The position numbers and the translations under genes are program-made. The notes under the pieces were generated by a model. That model ran no database searches, was not told the origin of the DNA, and saw only the letters and a program-made list of their open reading frames with translations. From assembly GCA_937876775.1 (NCBI GenBank), contig CALEFA010000070.1, positions 1-64,000 of the forward strand: a DNA stretch of 64,000 bases. Reading direction: 5' to 3'. Source of the DNA: an uncultured Rhodobiaceae bacterium. GTDB lineage: Bacteria; Pseudomonadota; Alphaproteobacteria; RS24. Every line of letters starts with the position of its first letter. Position 1 is the stretch's first letter. This document shows, in pieces, positions 2,191-10,275 of this stretch.

Positions 2191-2946
2191 TCAGCCGCTG
2201 GCCAACATTAGCTGAATGGCGCGGGCTATCAGCAGGGCGCCCATGGTCAATAGAATGCGTTGAGTCCATGAGAAGAATGTCGCGTCTTGCATATTGTCCA
2301 GTGCAAATTTACCGACGCGGGTGCCAAGCATAGAGGCAATAATCGCCAATATCAGCAGGTCTAGGGTCGGCCAATTAGCGAGGCTAGCGGTCGACACTAG
2401 CGCCCCAAAGAAAATAATTTTGGCGCTATGGCCGATGCCAGACAACACCGCTTTGGTGGCCACCACTTGATGTCGGGTCAGCGCCGTTTTCTGGAAGAAT
2501 AAATCTAAAACCGGCCCCGAAACTCCGGTCAGCAAATTGATAAACACGACCAACCAGCCGGCCACAAAAGCGACCGGTTTCTTCGTGACATCAAGTGCCC
2601 AGGCCTTTGGAATGGCGATGATAATATAGGGCATGAGGCCGAGGCCAAATAAAACCACAATGCGATTAGGCGAGAAGTCGATAATTTTCAAAATCGCCAG
2701 AGCAATTATCCCGCCAATAGAAAAATATCCAATAATATCCCATTTGATATCGCGCCGATTGAGCCAAGCGCGATAAACATTGGCCGTTAATTGCAAAATA
2801 CCGTGCAGCACCATGGCGGCACCAATTGGCATAACATTGGCTAACACAGCGAATAAAGTCATGCCGCCCAACATGCCGAACATGCTCGACATAAAGGCCG
2901 TAACGAAAGTTGCCACAACAATTAGCGCGACAATCAGAGCACTCAC
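2191..2946 (-). CDS. TauE/SafE family membrane permease
   Basis: This is a 251-residue polytopic inner-membrane protein with about seven to eight hydrophobic segments, starting with the MSALIVALIVVATFVTAFMS helix. It resembles the TauE/SafE (sulfite exporter-like, DUF81) family: two halves each open with a helix carrying a Gly/Pro-rich turn (SSMFGMLGG early, LTGVSGPVLD near residue 140). Family members move sulfonates, sulfite or organic acids; the substrate cannot be read from the sequence. The start is a GTG that overlaps the hisG stop (GTGA), so it is translationally coupled as the last gene of the hisS-hisZ-hisG run. No intrinsic terminator is evident after it. Confidence 0.82.
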   Translation of the reverse strand: MSALIVALIVVATFVTAFMSSMFGMLGGMTLFAVLANVMPIGAAMVLHGILQLTANVYRAWLNRRDIKWDIIGYFSIGGIIALAILKIIDFSPNRIVVLFGLGLMPYIIIAIPKAWALDVTKKPVAFVAGWLVVFINLLTGVSGPVLDLFFQKTALTRHQVVATKAVLSGIGHSAKIIFFGALVSTASLANWPTLDLLILAIIASMLGTRVGKFALDNMQDATFFSWTQRILLTMGALLIARAIQLMLASG

Positions 2947-3950
2947 AGCAGGGCGCCAGCCAGACGCTCATATAAGTCATTGCGCCTTTGAAAAATGAAA
3001 TCAGCTTGTGTAACAACGGCTTGGTCATAGTTAAACCGCGCCATCCAATGATCAATCATGGCCTGTAAATTAGCTTCGGGGACGAAAAACCGATCGACTT
3101 CAGCGGCAATTGATATGGCTTGCTCATCATCCAGTCTTTGGGCCCCGAAACGGCGCGCGGCATCGTCATAATCGTTTTGGTTCGGCTGTTGTTTGGTGCG
3201 CCGCCCACTGCTGGCTTCAGCGATAAACTGCACTTGCCTAGTGACACCAGCACTGCGATAGGCGGCCAAACGGGCCAGTAAGGTTTTCGCGGCCGTGCGG
3301 GCTGTTTCTGACCAATCGGCCCGCAAAGAGGCGGCCAAATTGGCTTCGCTTTTCAGTATGACGCCGTCTTCGGGCACCCGTAATTGATTGGCCGTTAGCG
3401 TGGCGCCGGTCGAGGTGATGTCAACAATGGCTTCAGCGGCGCCGACATTAGGGGCCGCCTCTGTGGCGCCAAAGCTTTGCACAATGACATAATCGTTGAC
3501 CCCGTGACGGGCAAAAAAATCTGCACATAATTGTGTGTATTTTGTCGCCACCCGCAACCGTTGACCATGCCGTGCGCGATAATCGGCCGCCACTTCCGCC
3601 AAATCGGCCATGGTCGAGACATCCGCCCAAGCGTTAGGAATGGCCACCACCACATCGGCGCGACCAAAACCCAAGGGGAGAACCAGTTGAATGACGCTCT
3701 CCATATCGGCGACTTCTTCGCGCAATAAATCTTCGCCAGTAATACCAAAATGCACGCTGCCATCAGCCAGTCGGCCAGCGATTTCGGAAGCCGAAATATA
3801 TTGCACATCAATATCGTCAATACCCTTTACCAGGCCGGTATAACCACGCGCACCGGCCCGTTTCAGGTTAATACCGGCTTGGGCAAAAACATCGGCGGCA
3901 TTTTCTTCCAAACGGCCTTTCGACGGCACGCCTAAAATCAAGCTGCTCAT
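2943..3950 (-). CDS. hisG: ATP phosphoribosyltransferase, catalytic subunit
   Basis: This enzyme performs the first step of histidine synthesis, joining ATP and PRPP to give phosphoribosyl-ATP. Visible features are the N-terminal GVPSKGRL motif, the YISASEIAGRLADG segment, and the PRPP-binding loop DITSTGATL near residue 172. At 335 residues it is longer than a minimal short-form HisG (about 210-230) because of an extra C-terminal region of roughly 100 residues, as in several alphaproteobacteria. Short-form enzymes need HisZ for activity and feedback control, and hisZ lies directly upstream with a 4-base overlap. A strong Shine-Dalgarno (AAGGAGGTG) precedes the ATG. The tauE-like gene overlaps its stop. 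Confidence 0.93.
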   Translation of the reverse strand: MSSLILGVPSKGRLEENAADVFAQAGINLKRAGARGYTGLVKGIDDIDVQYISASEIAGRLADGSVHFGITGEDLLREEVADMESVIQLVLPLGFGRADVVVAIPNAWADVSTMADLAEVAADYRARHGQRLRVATKYTQLCADFFARHGVNDYVIVQSFGATEAAPNVGAAEAIVDITSTGATLTANQLRVPEDGVILKSEANLAASLRADWSETARTAAKTLLARLAAYRSAGVTRQVQFIAEASSGRRTKQQPNQNDYDDAARRFGAQRLDDEQAISIAAEVDRFFVPEANLQAMIDHWMARFNYDQAVVTQADFIFQRRNDLYERLAGALL

Positions 3951-5314
3951 GCGGCACCTCCTTGCTGTTGGCTGGCGGCTCGCAGGCGCTCTAAGGCGAT
4001 GGCGCCGCCAACGGCGGCCAAGGGTGTTGACGCGCCGAGGCTTTGCAATAAATCATCATAGCGCCCGCCACTGGCGATCACCCGTTGGGCATTGAGTGCT
4101 GGCACGTGAATTTCAAATGCCAAGCCCGTGTAATAGGCCATTTTGCGGCCCTGTGCCGTGGCTAAAAATACCGGCTTTTGAGGGTTTTCTCGATTAAGCT
4201 CGGCGGCTGTCAGTAAGCCTTGCCAGTAATCTTGCAAGGGCGCCATGGCACCCGCGCGACCAAGCAGAGTTTCAATGTCTTGCAGTACGCGCTCTATGGG
4301 GCCGGATAATTTCATAAACTGCACGATTGCTCTGGCTTGCTTTGGTGTCAAACCGGCATCGGCTTCGCTTTGTAAGCGCAGAATTCGAGCGTTAATATCA
4401 CCGATCGTGCGGCCAACAATTTCGGCCTGCGGGTCGCCGTTAATAAAAGCAATGTCGCGCGGCGGCTGTGGGTTCTCTGCCTCATCCAAAAGCGTCTGCA
4501 GCACAGCATCAAAATTGGCGCTCTGGTGATAGGCTCGCTCAAGCCGTTTGGTGGTGCCTTGCGATAAATCAAGCGCCGCCAAAAATCGGCTGAACATGGT
4601 CAAATTATTGACGATGATTTGATATTGCTGGACCCCTGCCGTTTCTACCGCCTGCACGATTGTTTTCAAGACATCGGCTTCATCGGTCAAATGGTCGTCC
4701 GGTGGGCTGGCCAATATTTCAATGCCGGCCTGATAAAATTCTTCTGGCTTGCCAGCACCGCGCGACTGATAGCGAAAGGCAAGCCCCTCATAGGCGAGGC
4801 GCGCTTTCGGGGTGTTTGGGTTATTGGCCAAATAGGCCAGGGCCGTAGGAATGGTTAAATCTGGACGCAAACATAATTGCTCGCCGCCAGGGTCGGTGAA
4901 TAAATAAAGGCGGCGGCGCATTTCTTCACCCAAACGGTCGATGAACGGTCCGGCTGGTTGCATGATCGGCGTATGGCATGGCTCAAAACCCTGCGCGGTG
5001 AACATTGACAGAGCTGCCGTTTGGCTCGCCCGTGCCGCTGGCCGCTTGGCCGAGGTGCCGGGCGTTGCAACACCGCCAAATACCGCGTCGGCGACATCAA
5101 GGCCATGCGTTTGGCAAATTTTGGCGAGGGTAAAATAGGCGCGCGCTGGAAACCCGAGACGGCGATAATTGGAGACTGAAGAAGCGCCAACACCCAGAAG
5201 GTCGGCCACTGCCTTCGTGCCGCCCAAGGCGTCAATCACCGCATTGGCCGTGGTTAACCGCCCGAGCGGTGCGCGGTTTGCTGGTTCAACAGGGAGATTT
5301 GTGTGATAAGCCAT
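3947..5314 (-). CDS. hisZ: ATP phosphoribosyltransferase regulatory subunit with N-terminal helix-turn-helix
   Basis: HisZ is a catalytically idle paralogue of histidyl-tRNA synthetase that forms a hetero-octamer with short HisG and gives it histidine feedback sensitivity. From about residue 105 the protein looks like HisZ: a class II core with RPDLTIP (motif-2-like region), EFYQAGIEI, AYYTGLAFEIHV and ASGGRYDDL. Residues 20-80 are unusual: GGTKAVADLLGV-GASSVSNYRRLG is a classical helix-turn-helix like small Cro/YdaS-type DNA-binding proteins, joined to HisZ by an Ala/Pro-rich linker. That makes 455 residues, well above the usual 320-390. The ATG chosen is the first after an in-frame TAA six codons' distance upstream; its Shine-Dalgarno is weak. 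A DNA-binding role is inferred. Confidence 0.9.
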   Translation of the reverse strand: MAYHTNLPVEPANRAPLGRLTTANAVIDALGGTKAVADLLGVGASSVSNYRRLGFPARAYFTLAKICQTHGLDVADAVFGGVATPGTSAKRPAARASQTAALSMFTAQGFEPCHTPIMQPAGPFIDRLGEEMRRRLYLFTDPGGEQLCLRPDLTIPTALAYLANNPNTPKARLAYEGLAFRYQSRGAGKPEEFYQAGIEILASPPDDHLTDEADVLKTIVQAVETAGVQQYQIIVNNLTMFSRFLAALDLSQGTTKRLERAYHQSANFDAVLQTLLDEAENPQPPRDIAFINGDPQAEIVGRTIGDINARILRLQSEADAGLTPKQARAIVQFMKLSGPIERVLQDIETLLGRAGAMAPLQDYWQGLLTAAELNRENPQKPVFLATAQGRKMAYYTGLAFEIHVPALNAQRVIASGGRYDDLLQSLGASTPLAAVGGAIALERLRAASQQQGGAA

Positions 5315-5319
5315 AGAGA

Positions 5320-5454
5320 TTTATGGCATAAAAATTAATAAAAAGAAAATGAAAATGACACATAATGGCGAATTTATATAATTTGAATATGTTTTAAATT
5401 AAATAGTGGCGTAATTTCCCAAAAATACTTCATTTTATTCATATTATATGAATA
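5320..5454. promoter_or_regulatory. AT-rich hisS-hisZ spacer with two palindromes
   Basis: The 150-base spacer between the hisS stop and the hisZ start is far richer in A+T than its surroundings. It contains a perfect 9-1-9 inverted repeat at 5436-5454 (TATTCATAT-T-ATATGAATA) and a 6-1-6 repeat at 5320-5332 (TTTATG-G-CATAAA) just ahead of the hisZ ATG. Both are odd-length dyads of the size bound by dimeric helix-turn-helix proteins. Because HisZ itself carries such a domain, autoregulation is an attractive but unproven reading. An internal promoter for hisZ-hisG is also plausible; I could not place -35 and -10 boxes with confidence. Confidence 0.35.
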
Positions 5455-5464
5455 TAAGCGATTG

Positions 5465-6961
5465 TTAGGCTAGTATTTGCTTAATTGTGTCAATTAGGGC
5501 GTCGCGCGGCACTTGTTGCTGCGCATGAGCCGAGGCGCGCCATTCGGCATTGTCCTCGATTTCAGCGGATTGCTGCTTGCCCAATTCGAGATCTTTCAGC
5601 GTGACCACACCAGCTTGGCGCTCGTCCTCGCCTTCAATGATCACCAGTCGGGCATCGCGCAAGTCGGCATAGCGCAATTGCGCCTTCATGGCACTGTCGC
5701 CAATATAGAGCTCGGCTCGCAGGCCAGCCTGCCGCAAACCCTGCACCAATTGCATGAGTTCTGGGCGGGTTTCTTTGTCCATAACCAGAACAACAATCAG
5801 CGGATCAGTCTGGCTGCCTTGGGTTTTGCCCAACATGGTGAGGGCGGCGGCCAAACGGCTCACACCAATTGAAATGCCAGTGGCGGGAATTTCAACGCCT
5901 TTGAAGCGCTTGACCAAATCATCATAACGGCCTCCGCCGCCAACTGAACCAAATCGCGTGATGTCGCCATTCTCATCTTCGGCGTCAAAAGTCAGTTCAA
6001 TTTCATAGACGGGGCCGGTGTAATAGCCGAGGCCGCGCACAATACTCGCGTCAACCGCCAGCCGGTCTGCCTGATAGCCAAGGGCGGTGAACAGTGCATC
6101 CATTTCACGTAATTCGCCAACCCCATCGGCGCCAGCTTTTGTGCTGCCAACCAGAGCTTCCATGGCATCAATCACCGCTGGTCGGTTGTTGGCCTGAATC
6201 GAGACCATGGCTGCCACTTGCTCAATCTGTTGGTCGTCAAGACCCGCACCTTTGGTGAAATCACCGCTGTCATCTTTGCGTCCGGCGCCTAATAAATCAC
6301 GCACCCCATCGAGCCCGAGACGGTCAAATTTATCCATTGCGCGCAAGATCGTCAGTCTTTGGCTTTCATAATCATCGCTATCGCTATTGAGCCCAATGGC
6401 TTGCAACAGACCGTCCATTATTTTGCGGTTATTAATGCGCACCAAGTAATCACCGGTCTCAATCCCAAGCGCTGCCATACAATCGGCTGCCATCATGCAT
6501 ATTTCTGCGTCAGCTGCCATGTTGCCGGCGCCGACTGTATCAGCGTCAATCTGTAAAAATTGACGATAGCGGCCGGGGCCCGGCTTTTCATTGCGCCATA
6601 CGGGGCCCCATTGAAAACGCCGCAACGGTTTGGGTAAAGCGTCGTAATTCTCTGCCACATAGCGCGCCAATGGCGCCGTTAGGTCATAGCGCAGGCTCAT
6701 CCACTGGCCATCATCGTCGGCCAGTGCAAACACGCCTTCATTGGGGCGATCATCATCGGGCAAAAATTTGCCCAGTGCGTCAGCATATTCAAACGCCGAC
6801 GTATCTAATGCGCCAAAGCCATAACGTTCATAAACAGAAGAGATCGTTGCAATCATAGATTGCTGGAGGCTCAATTCATCGCCTGACATGTCGCGAAAGC
6901 CGCGTGGCTTACGGGCTTTCGGCTTAAAGATCTTCTGCTTTTTGGCTTTACGATTCGACAT
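5465..6961 (-). CDS. hisS: Histidyl-tRNA synthetase
   Basis: This class II aminoacyl-tRNA synthetase charges tRNA-His with histidine. Motif 2 is seen as FQWGPVWRNEKPGPGRYRQF, the histidine-specific region as RGLGYYTGPVYEIEL, and the ATP-binding motif 3 region as GGGGRYDDLVKRF; a C-terminal anticodon-binding domain follows (LIVVLVMDKETRPELM onward). At 498 residues it belongs to the long HisRS type common in alphaproteobacteria rather than the 420-residue E. coli type. A Shine-Dalgarno (TAGGAA) precedes the ATG. It leads a hisS-hisZ-hisG set, so tRNA charging and the histidine committing step are linked. Confidence 0.96.
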   Translation of the reverse strand: MSNRKAKKQKIFKPKARKPRGFRDMSGDELSLQQSMIATISSVYERYGFGALDTSAFEYADALGKFLPDDDRPNEGVFALADDDGQWMSLRYDLTAPLARYVAENYDALPKPLRRFQWGPVWRNEKPGPGRYRQFLQIDADTVGAGNMAADAEICMMAADCMAALGIETGDYLVRINNRKIMDGLLQAIGLNSDSDDYESQRLTILRAMDKFDRLGLDGVRDLLGAGRKDDSGDFTKGAGLDDQQIEQVAAMVSIQANNRPAVIDAMEALVGSTKAGADGVGELREMDALFTALGYQADRLAVDASIVRGLGYYTGPVYEIELTFDAEDENGDITRFGSVGGGGRYDDLVKRFKGVEIPATGISIGVSRLAAALTMLGKTQGSQTDPLIVVLVMDKETRPELMQLVQGLRQAGLRAELYIGDSAMKAQLRYADLRDARLVIIEGEDERQAGVVTLKDLELGKQQSAEIEDNAEWRASAHAQQQVPRDALIDTIKQILA

Positions 6962-7014: not shown

Positions 7015-8460
7015 TTAAAATCCGAAAGGTGAGAGGCCGCGCACATGTTCGTCAAGCCGCAGGTCGCGATTCACTGAAGGTGTGGCGCGTTGATTGCAGT
7101 CGGATCTTTCGCACAGCCGACAATTAACCCCAATCGGCGTGTCACCTTCTTCTTTCTCGAGGCTGGCACCACGCGCGTAGACGAGTTTGTCAGCGTGTTT
7201 AATCTCGCAACCGAGGGCAATAGCGAATTGATTATCCGGCACGCCAAAGCCGGAGTTGTCGCGGCTTACTGTGCGGGCGATGGAAAAATAGCGCGTCGCA
7301 TCTTCCATTTGCACAATCTGCGTGGAGATTTTGCCGGGAATCCGAAAGGCGTCATGCACATGCCATCGCGGACAGGTACCACCAAAGCGGGCGAAGTGAA
7401 AGCCGCCGGCTGAAAAACGTTTGGAAATATTGCCCGCATTGTCGACGCGGATGAGAAAAAACGGAATGCCTCGGGCGCCGGGTCGCTGCAAAGTCGTCAG
7501 GCGATGGCAGACTTGTTCAAAACTCGTGCCAAAGCGACGCCCCAGCAGCGTGATGTCATAATGGTTAATTTCTGCGGTTTTCAAAAAAGAGTCATAGGGC
7601 ATGAGCACGGCGGCTGCAAAATAGTTTGCCAGCGAAATGCGCGCCACAACCCGCGTCTCTTCTTTTTCCATACCAGCTTGGCGGATAATCTCCTCAATCG
7701 CCGGCATTTGCTCGAAATAAGCCAATTGATAGGCCAGCTGAAAAGATCGCCCTGGCTGGTCGAGCAATTCCGACAGAAAAATTGTCTGCCGATGCCGGTC
7801 ATAGCGGCGCAGGGTGTTTTCCATTACTTCAACTGGCGCGATCCGCGTGCTCACCCGATGGCGTTCTTCCAGCCTTGCCCGCAAGGCCAAATAAGGCTCA
7901 TCATGTTCAGCCACTGAGGCGCGATAGACAGCCTCGGCTTCTTCATCCAGAGCGGCGAAATGATTGTTTTGATGGGTGATGAAATCGCGCACCTCTTCCA
8001 GCGCCATAACCGCACCTGGATTATCAGCCGGGCCGCTGCCGGCCAATTGCTCAGCCAATAAAGAATTATTTGACCGACTTTGCAAAAACGCCTGATACAG
8101 ACGCGCTACGGCATCGGCCGCGGCTGGGCTGGCGGCGGCGAAATCTTTCAACTCATCCTTTGGCAGCGGCGCATCGCGAAACATCGGGTCAGAGAACACT
8201 TCGTGCAATTGAGCCTGGGCGCGCGCTTCTTCGTCGCCAGCCAAGCCACGTGGGTCAATATCGAAGACGTCGATTAATTGTAAAAGAATCTGTGCTGAAA
8301 TCGGTCGTTGGTCGCGTTCAATGAGGTTTAGATAGCTGGTTGAGATGCCAAGTGCCTCAGCCATTGCGGCCTGTGTCAGTCGTTGTTCGCGTCTAAGGCG
8401 ACGCACACGGGCGCCTGCGAAGAGTTTTCGTTCGACTAGTTTATTCGTCGCATCAGCCAT
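7015..8460 (-). CDS. ScfR/RamB-type short-chain acyl-CoA responsive regulator
   Basis: This is an XRE-type transcription factor of 481 residues. The N-terminal helix-turn-helix is at about residues 18-72 (RRLRREQRLTQAAMAEALGIS-TSYLNLIERDQRPIS). It is followed by an ImmA/IrrE-like domain (around FQLAYQLAYFEQMPAIEEI) and the Cys-containing C-terminal domain of short-chain fatty acyl regulators, with GVNCRLCERSDCNQRATP near the end. RamB of Corynebacterium, MccR-type and ScfR-type regulators share this architecture and control glyoxylate, propionate or acetate genes. It is divergent from isocitrate lyase, so control of aceA and of itself is the likely job. hisS lies 53 bases downstream on the same strand. 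Confidence 0.88.
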   Translation of the reverse strand: MADATNKLVERKLFAGARVRRLRREQRLTQAAMAEALGISTSYLNLIERDQRPISAQILLQLIDVFDIDPRGLAGDEEARAQAQLHEVFSDPMFRDAPLPKDELKDFAAASPAAADAVARLYQAFLQSRSNNSLLAEQLAGSGPADNPGAVMALEEVRDFITHQNNHFAALDEEAEAVYRASVAEHDEPYLALRARLEERHRVSTRIAPVEVMENTLRRYDRHRQTIFLSELLDQPGRSFQLAYQLAYFEQMPAIEEIIRQAGMEKEETRVVARISLANYFAAAVLMPYDSFLKTAEINHYDITLLGRRFGTSFEQVCHRLTTLQRPGARGIPFFLIRVDNAGNISKRFSAGGFHFARFGGTCPRWHVHDAFRIPGKISTQIVQMEDATRYFSIARTVSRDNSGFGVPDNQFAIALGCEIKHADKLVYARGASLEKEEGDTPIGVNCRLCERSDCNQRATPSVNRDLRLDEHVRGLSPFGF

Positions 8461-8670: not shown

Positions 8671-10275
8671 ATGACAAAATATACCGATCTGGTCGCCCAG
8701 AACGCCAAAACGCTGAATGAAAACGGCAGTGCGTGGGCCGCCCTTAACCCAGAATATGTAACTCGTATGCAATTGCAAAACCGCTTCAAAACTGGTCTCG
8801 ATGTTGCCCGTTATACAGCTGATATTATGCGCAAAGATATGGCTGATTATGATGCCAATAGCGCTGATTACACACAATCTCTCGGCTGCTGGCACGGTTT
8901 CACCGCGCAGCAAATGATGATGGCTGTGAAACGTCATGAAAAAACAACCAGCAAATCATATGTCTATTTGAGTGGCTGGATGGTTGCCGCGCTACGCTCT
9001 GATTTCGGCCCTCTGCCAGATCAGTCGATGCACGAAAAAACCACTGTGCCAAATTTGATTGAAGAAATTTACACATTCCTGAAACAGGCTGATGCGCGTG
9101 AGTTGCGTCACTTGTTCAAAGATCTGGATGAAGCCCGCGCAAGCGGTGGCGACGTTGATGCGGCTTTGGCTAAAATCGACAATTTTGAAACCCATGTTGT
9201 GCCAATCATCGCCGATATTGATGCTGGTTTTGGTAACGAAGAAGCCACTTACTTGCTGGCCAAGAAAATGATCGAAGCCGGTGCTTGCTGCATCCAAATC
9301 GAAAATCAAGTTTCTGACGCCAAGCAATGCGGTCACCAAGATGGTAAAGTGACCGTGCCGCATGAAGACTTTTTGTCAAAAATTAACGCCGTTCGTTATG
9401 CTTTCCTTGAGCTTGGCGTTGAAAATGGTGTGATTGTTGCCCGTACCGATTCACTCGGCGCTGGCCTGACACAAAAAGTGCCTGTGTCACAAACACCTGG
9501 CGATTTGGCTGACCAATATAATGCTTTCTTAAAAGTCGAGCCGGTTGAAAATATTAGCGACATTGGTCATGGCGAAATGACCCTGACTCAAGGTGGCAAG
9601 CTGGTGAAACCAGTGCGTCTGCCAAATGGCCTGTATGCCTTTAAAGATGGTTCAGGTGAAGACCGCGTTGTTCTTGACTGCGTTAATTCTCTGCAAAATG
9701 GTGCCGATTTGTTGTGGATTGAAACCGAGAAGCCAAATGTTGCGCAAATTGCTGGCATGGTGAACCGCGTGCGTGAAACCATTCCAAATGCCAAATTGGT
9801 GTATAACAACTCACCAAGCTTCAACTGGACACTGGCCTTCCGCGAGCAAGTCTATGGTGAATGGGTTGCTGCTGGCAAAGATGTGTCAGCTTATCCAGAT
9901 CCAGCTTCAACCCCACGTGGTTTGATGGATGTGAAATTTGACTCCAGCGAATTGGCCGTCGAAGCTGATAATCTGATCCAAAGCTTCCAAAAAGATGCGG
10001 CACGTGATGCCGGCATTTTCCACCATTTGATCACCCTGCCGACCTATCACGAAACCGCTTTGGGTACAGATATTCTGTCTGAAGGTTATTTCGGTGATCT
10101 GGGCATGTTGGCTTATGTTCGTGACATTCAGCGTCAGGAAATTCGCCGTGATCAAGCCTCTGTGAAACACCAGGATTTAGCTGGTTCGAACATTGGTGAT
10201 GACCACAAAGAATACTTCTCAGGCGACAATGCACTTTTGGCCTCTGGTGAAGACAACACAATGAACCAATTCTAA
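8671..10275 (+). CDS. aceA: Isocitrate lyase (large, Pseudomonas-type)
   Basis: Isocitrate lyase splits isocitrate into succinate and glyoxylate, the first reaction of the glyoxylate shunt, needed for growth on acetate and fatty acids. The active-site cysteine is in KQCGHQDGKVTVPH at residues 218-222, where the E. coli class has KKCGH; this form and the 534-residue length match the subgroup known from Pseudomonas and Acinetobacter. Other landmarks are ADIDAGFGN and YNNSPSFNW. It is divergent from an ScfR-type regulator with repeated motifs between them and ends in a strong terminator. Malate synthase is not in the window. Confidence 0.95.
   Translation: MTKYTDLVAQNAKTLNENGSAWAALNPEYVTRMQLQNRFKTGLDVARYTADIMRKDMADYDANSADYTQSLGCWHGFTAQQMMMAVKRHEKTTSKSYVYLSGWMVAALRSDFGPLPDQSMHEKTTVPNLIEEIYTFLKQADARELRHLFKDLDEARASGGDVDAALAKIDNFETHVVPIIADIDAGFGNEEATYLLAKKMIEAGACCIQIENQVSDAKQCGHQDGKVTVPHEDFLSKINAVRYAFLELGVENGVIVARTDSLGAGLTQKVPVSQTPGDLADQYNAFLKVEPVENISDIGHGEMTLTQGGKLVKPVRLPNGLYAFKDGSGEDRVVLDCVNSLQNGADLLWIETEKPNVAQIAGMVNRVRETIPNAKLVYNNSPSFNWTLAFREQVYGEWVAAGKDVSAYPDPASTPRGLMDVKFDSSELAVEADNLIQSFQKDAARDAGIFHHLITLPTYHETALGTDILSEGYFGDLGMLAYVRDIQRQEIRRDQASVKHQDLAGSNIGDDHKEYFSGDNALLASGEDNTMNQF

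Follow-up and report, generated by a model that had tools for sequence, protein, structure and literature searches.

What is a DNA-binding domain doing at the head of HisZ, the regulatory subunit of HisG? HisZ is a HisRS-like paralogue, at least dimeric in known structures, and is a known feedback module acting on HisG. We know of no previously known HisZ that carries a DNA-binding domain. In the window, that is, the 64,000-nucleotide stretch from an uncultured Rhodobiaceae bacterium analyzed here, positions 3947 to 5314 of the minus strand form one intact, unbroken 455-aa reading frame comprising a helix-turn-helix (HTH) domain, a linker, and HisZ. Along the locus, hisS is followed by a 150-bp gap, the fused gene (HTH::hisZ), and hisG, with hisZ and hisG overlapping by 4 nt (ATGA) and likely co-regulated; a TauE-like gene also lies nearby.

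Features of the HTH::hisZ locus, in window positions
Feature	Position	Strand	Basis
HTH::hisZ, single ORF, 455 aa	3947..5314 (stop included)	-	ORF and profiles
Cro/carph-isopro-like helix-turn-helix domain, residues 19-81	5072..5260	-	profiles, alignment, predicted fold
Conserved turn and recognition helix of the HTH	~residues 43-53	-	alignment
Ala/Pro-rich linker, variable, low-confidence, residues 82-98	5021..5071	-	structure model, identity
HisZ body, residues 99-455; Q195/E199, YYTG, and GGRYD motifs retained	3950..5020	-	profiles, fold
Putative operator, perfect 15-bp palindrome TTCATAT-W-ATATGAA	5438..5452	.	pattern search
Additional ATGAA half-site beside the palindrome	5429..5433	-	half-site count
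TTCAT half-site close to the putative promoter	5349..5353	-	half-site count
Possible -10 box CATAAA, weak	5320..5325	-	inference, comparison with relatives; missed by strict promoter scan
hisS-hisZ intergenic region, AT-rich, houses the sites	5315..5464	-	sequence
hisG	2943..3950	-	ORF, profiles; overlaps hisZ
hisS (histidine--tRNA ligase), upstream of HTH::hisZ	5465..6961	-	ORF, profiles

The sequence-only reading had proposed a Cro/YdaS-like HTH, an Ala/Pro linker, and HisZ on one chain, and this architecture was borne out by profile searches, which returned HTH-family matches, and by the predicted fold. Residues 24 to 74 matched PHROG 8008 'DNA binding protein' (1.4e-8) and NCBIfam carph-isopro (NF046037; 8e-6, 26 bits, under the curated cut-off of 38 bits, which the match of the OCS116 member G294 exceeds). 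Pfam YdaS and P22_Cro matched the same residues of the single window sequence weakly; carph-isopro, P22_Cro, and YdaS were each matched independently by all 12 of the 12 relatives in alignment A3. Against solved proteins, the domain profile recovered Xfaso-1 Cro (3bd1, 1.1e-5) and P22 Cro (1rzs, 9e-4). The AlphaFold2 model of the domain was compact and helical (pLDDT 92), and its closest solved fold was again Xfaso-1 Cro (prob 1.00, TM 0.65-0.70), with a poor Foldseek E of 0.05 that is usual for a domain of only 60 residues. In the full-length model, pLDDT fell below 50 solely in the N-tail (1-15) and the linker (81-97). By profile and model, residues 19 to 81 are a P22-Cro-like HTH, with both a predicted Cro-like helical fold and a conserved recognition helix. 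Most carph-isopro (NF046037) matches in other Alphaproteobacteria, however, resembled membrane-protein N-termini (L192-L209 and similar), which we take to be HemX/COG4223-like, and some of these adjoin hemD-like genes; a regulatory role is thus not evident for every copy of the domain.

The rest of the chain is HisZ. The HisZ profiles NF008953 (1e-74) and TIGR00443 (6e-46) matched the window body, both under their curated cut-offs, and the best fold matches were the HisZ structures 3od1 and 1z7m. Across the locus, HGTP_anticodon was detected in hisS only and not in the HisZ body, and hisG is adjacent. Q195, E199, YYTG, and GGRYD persist in the body and, by position from HisRS, are expected to hold histidine. 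The description of the body as 'otherwise normal' HisZ does not hold throughout the family: in two genomes (L022 and L023, genus g4; 376 and 393 aa), part of the middle of HisZ is missing. Both retain the HTH and the adjacent hisG.

The window's family, the PS1 clade, comprised 28 genomes, with named relatives including alpha proteobacterium IMCC14465 and PS1 clade bacterium MED-G50. The HTH was present in 24 of these, in 6/6 genera, and every time on HisZ; the remaining four had no HisZ match (three nothing, one a weak match of hisS type only). PS1 genomes encoded a single HTH of this kind each (E<=1e-4), invariably on HisZ. The same extension was found on HisZ in 15 of 18 genomes of OCS116. 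This is a separate order, and OCS116 cluster bacterium AG-390-I16 and alpha proteobacterium MED-G09 are among its named members. Shared by 24 PS1 and 15 OCS116 genomes, the fusion is not an assembly accident. Across the class, HisZ (E<=1e-30) was identified in 39 of 289 sampled genomes, nine of which had the fused form: four belong to PS1, three to OCS116, and two to a third lineage, in which the HTH is divergent; the other HisZ N-termini inspected in this sample had no such domain. A scan of 84,980 species with the pattern VSNYR[KR][LQK]GF, which misses divergent HTH versions, returned 27 loci, all of the kinds seen in PS1 and OCS116. In a tree of the HisZ body, a branch supported at 95/71 left PS1 and OCS116 on the same side, on long branches.

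Conservation was concentrated in the HTH. Mean identity within PS1 was 72% for the HTH, 50% for the HisZ body, and 21% for the linker, and between PS1 and OCS116 it was 45% for the HTH and 29% for the body. S-x-x-S-N-Y-R and the following G-F-P were invariant in the HTH alignment, and the SxxSNYR recognition motif was nearly invariant overall; far from being lost in homologues, the residues of the recognition helix are conserved above all others in the domain. Compared with the close relative G002, the window genome has 22 silent differences and 1 amino-acid-changing difference in the 62 codons of the HTH, which indicates strong purifying selection, and 6 silent and 13 changing ones in the 36 codons of the N-tail and linker. 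That freely varying tail and linker would suit an HTH that is a functionless remnant. The conserved recognition helix, the 22-to-1 codon ratio, and the retention of the HTH even where HisZ is shortened all argue against a remnant, and the codon and conservation data strongly disfavour it, to the point that its probability is close to nil.

A matching DNA element accompanies the fused gene. A perfect 15-bp palindrome, TTCATAT-N-ATATGAA, was found upstream of it in both PS1 and OCS116. The window copy is the sole one in the 1.72-Mb genome, allowing up to 1 mismatch. In the window genome and the genus-3 genomes (e.g., IMCC14465), the palindrome or a near copy begins 136-138 nt before the start codon. 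In OCS116, where 13 of the 18 genomes have the exact palindrome upstream of the fused gene, its end lies 5-8 nt from the start codon and a second copy often follows hisS; one genome has a second, adjacent exact copy, and one has a further exact copy within an sdh coding sequence. Allowing for variation in the center, 21 of the 24 fused genes in PS1 had TTCA-N7-TGAA upstream (mean in shuffles 0.11), and the 24 upstream regions held 104 TTCAT/ATGAA half-sites against 16 expected from shuffles, making this the top-enriched pentamer; these counts come from related genomes rather than independent events and are inflated, and the agreement between the two orders is the stronger point. The three genus-5 genomes without an exact TTCA-N7-TGAA have other half-site layouts, e.g., ATGAAcTTCAT. 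None of 21 hisZ genes that lack this HTH, taken as controls, had TTCA-N7-TGAA upstream; of these, 19 are truly unfused as far as this test shows and two (L172 and L173) carry the divergent HTH; the comparison is supportive, not decisive, because most controls have GC-richer upstream DNA.

The other genomic matches to the operator pattern that were inspected lay inside coding sequences (rplK, aldehyde-dehydrogenase-like, sensor-kinase-like, and sdh genes), apart from one imperfect intergenic match ahead of an ihfB-like gene in L146 only, and a wider regulon is thus not supported. Under the strict scan, the coding strand yielded no sigma-70 promoter. What is present, on comparative grounds, is an operator-like site at a gene of the protein's own pathway, in the form of a conserved and essentially unique palindrome.

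The palindrome might instead act in RNA, as an attenuator or a hisS terminator. A small hairpin is possible in the window (-4.6 kcal/mol, z -2.4), and two OCS116 regions gave z -2.2 and -2.5. Its stem, however, is AU-only, the scan returned no terminator-like site, and the intergenic RNA taken as a whole is no more stably folded than shuffled versions (z +0.9). The site also ranges from about -137 to immediately beside the start codon; in genus 5 its symmetry is imperfect, and in some species of that genus it covers a TTGAC -35-like box. An RNA element is, on this evidence, highly improbable. Small HTH proteins abound, and the palindromes could serve another regulator, leaving the HTH on HisZ to do something else, e.g., tethering. 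Here the evidence points the other way as well: the palindrome tracks the fused HTH in two orders and is missing upstream of the 21 hisZ genes without this HTH, PS1 genomes hold no second HTH of this family at E<=1e-4, and a related HTH on CoaBC (below) is accompanied by a related palindrome. We regard a separate regulator as improbable, though less so than an RNA element.

We consider it likely that hisZG is autoregulated, with HTH-HisZ binding the promoter of its own gene, probably as a repressor that responds to histidine. Because a matching DNA target precedes its own gene, one protein probably controls both enzyme and gene. HisZ is at least dimeric, and pairs of Cro-like heads on flexible linkers would therefore be available for a palindrome, the TTCA and TGAA ends of which are separated by about one helical turn. 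By binding the 15-bp palindrome in the hisS-hisZ gap, the paired heads would control hisZ-hisG transcription. Histidine in the HisZ site, already feeding back on HisG, would also favour operator binding, such that one sensor would set both the activity and the amount of the enzyme. The simplest and most likely account is end-product repression, in which histidine-loaded HTH-HisZ represses hisZG. The dual role suggested in the sequence-only reading has thereby gained strong comparative support, in a conserved, essentially genome-unique palindrome tied to the fusion in two orders, and DNA binding is strongly favoured; its biochemical parts, namely binding, the histidine signal, and repression, are still what we infer.

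The main rival to histidine-loaded repression is release by HisG capture. The signal would then be assembly, not histidine: free HisZ would repress, and HisG would draw HisZ into the enzyme complex and lift repression, balancing the subunits. Autoregulation of an apparently single target and the hisZ-hisG overlap would both fit such control of stoichiometry, but the histidine-site motifs are conserved in the HisZ body, and HisZ is in general a feedback module. An assembly signal is therefore unlikely, if less remote than the alternatives above, and we prefer histidine as the ligand.

Enzyme/repressor fusions are already known in kind (BirA), and the new element here is the HTH on HisZ. BirA, NadR, and PutA are bifunctional enzyme/repressor proteins. 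In all of these, as is predicted for HTH-HisZ, a metabolic protein with a DNA-binding part targets genes of the pathway to which it belongs; this also holds for BzdR, a bifunctional protein of enzyme/repressor type (PMC3602430). HTH-HisZ differs from the four in that its metabolic part is the regulatory subunit HisZ, its HTH is of P22-Cro/carph-isopro type, and its sole predicted target is its own operon. It shares with the known HisZ and HisZG forms (Lactococcus lactis 1z7m, B. halodurans 3od1, and A. baumannii 8oy0) the HisRS-like fold, the adjacent hisG, and the histidine-site motifs, and is set apart from them by the Cro-like HTH fused at the N-terminus. That HTH resembles P22 Cro, Xfaso-1 Cro, and carph-isopro (NF046037) in sequence profile and predicted fold; the solved Cro proteins are small phage repressors, whereas here the domain is a constant N-terminal part of a housekeeping protein encoded on the chromosome. 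The known means of controlling histidine genes are RNA attenuators, T-boxes, and separate repressors (PMC9413887). Among the last, HisR, a stand-alone TrpR-family histidine repressor of his genes (PMC9413887), is likewise a DNA-binding protein controlling his transcription, as is predicted for HTH-HisZ, but it belongs to an unrelated family and is not fused to HisZ. Searches of open-access papers for HisZ with a helix-turn-helix, a DNA-binding domain, or a repressor role, and for carph-isopro, turned up no description of this arrangement, in keeping with the earlier impression that a dual role for HisZ is undescribed. If the proposal is true, repression of its own gene by an allosteric subunit would amount to a new arrangement, here in streamlined marine bacteria, and the locus provides a concrete candidate protein-operator pair.

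Related HTHs are fused to CoaBC and apparently to other enzymes, and the idea is wider than HisZ. In the order SAR116, a related Cro-like HTH lies N-terminal to CoaBC (phosphopantothenoylcysteine decarboxylase/ligase; L058, L059, L075-L104). HTH matches were present in 107 of 136 SAR116 genomes and in 42 of the 43 of high quality, and all 30 loci with the frame read were CoaBC. Upstream of these, TTCA-N7-TGAA occurred in 11 of 30 (shuffle mean 0.08), mostly as TTCACA-N3-TGTGAA, and several others had TTCAYATAAA repeats with a period of 10. Compared with the HisZ palindrome, this indicates that related heads accompany related yet distinct palindromes. The parallel in CoaBC suggests that metabolic proteins can be turned into regulators along a general route.

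The third HTH::HisZ lineage (L172, L173, and L222-L225, family f121), with its divergent HTH, has different upstream repeats, present in all 4 of 4 genomes from one genus: GTCCYG occurs at about -128 and -76 and CAGGAC at about -24, in steps of about 52 bp before the start codon. Two further candidates were observed. In L218 (G157), a P22-Cro-like HTH (Pfam P22_Cro 1.9e-7) lies in frame before another protein, presumably one resembling crotonyl-CoA carboxylase/reductase, as a candidate fusion. In L211 (G139), an HTH-like N-terminus lies in frame before a YjeF/Nnr-type NAD(P)HX repair protein (YjeF_N 1.8e-13).

A tentative extension, to which we give somewhat less than even weight, is that Alphaproteobacteria repeatedly grafted a Cro-like head onto metabolic proteins to yield self-regulating repressors, and that HisZG may bind several sites cooperatively. 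Such grafting would cover HisZ (three lineages) and SAR116 CoaBC, and apparently also the crotonyl-CoA-reductase-like and YjeF/Nnr-like proteins; for HisZ and CoaBC, at least, the upstream DNA holds matched elements. Cooperative binding by HisZG, e.g., at the -128, -76, and -24 sites of the third lineage, would make the histidine-controlled enzyme its own repressor.

Elsewhere in the window (7015-8460 and 8671-10275), a regulator that begins with an XRE-type HTH and has a large C-terminal portion is divergent from an isocitrate-lyase-like gene; we take this regulator to resemble those of short-chain fatty acids.
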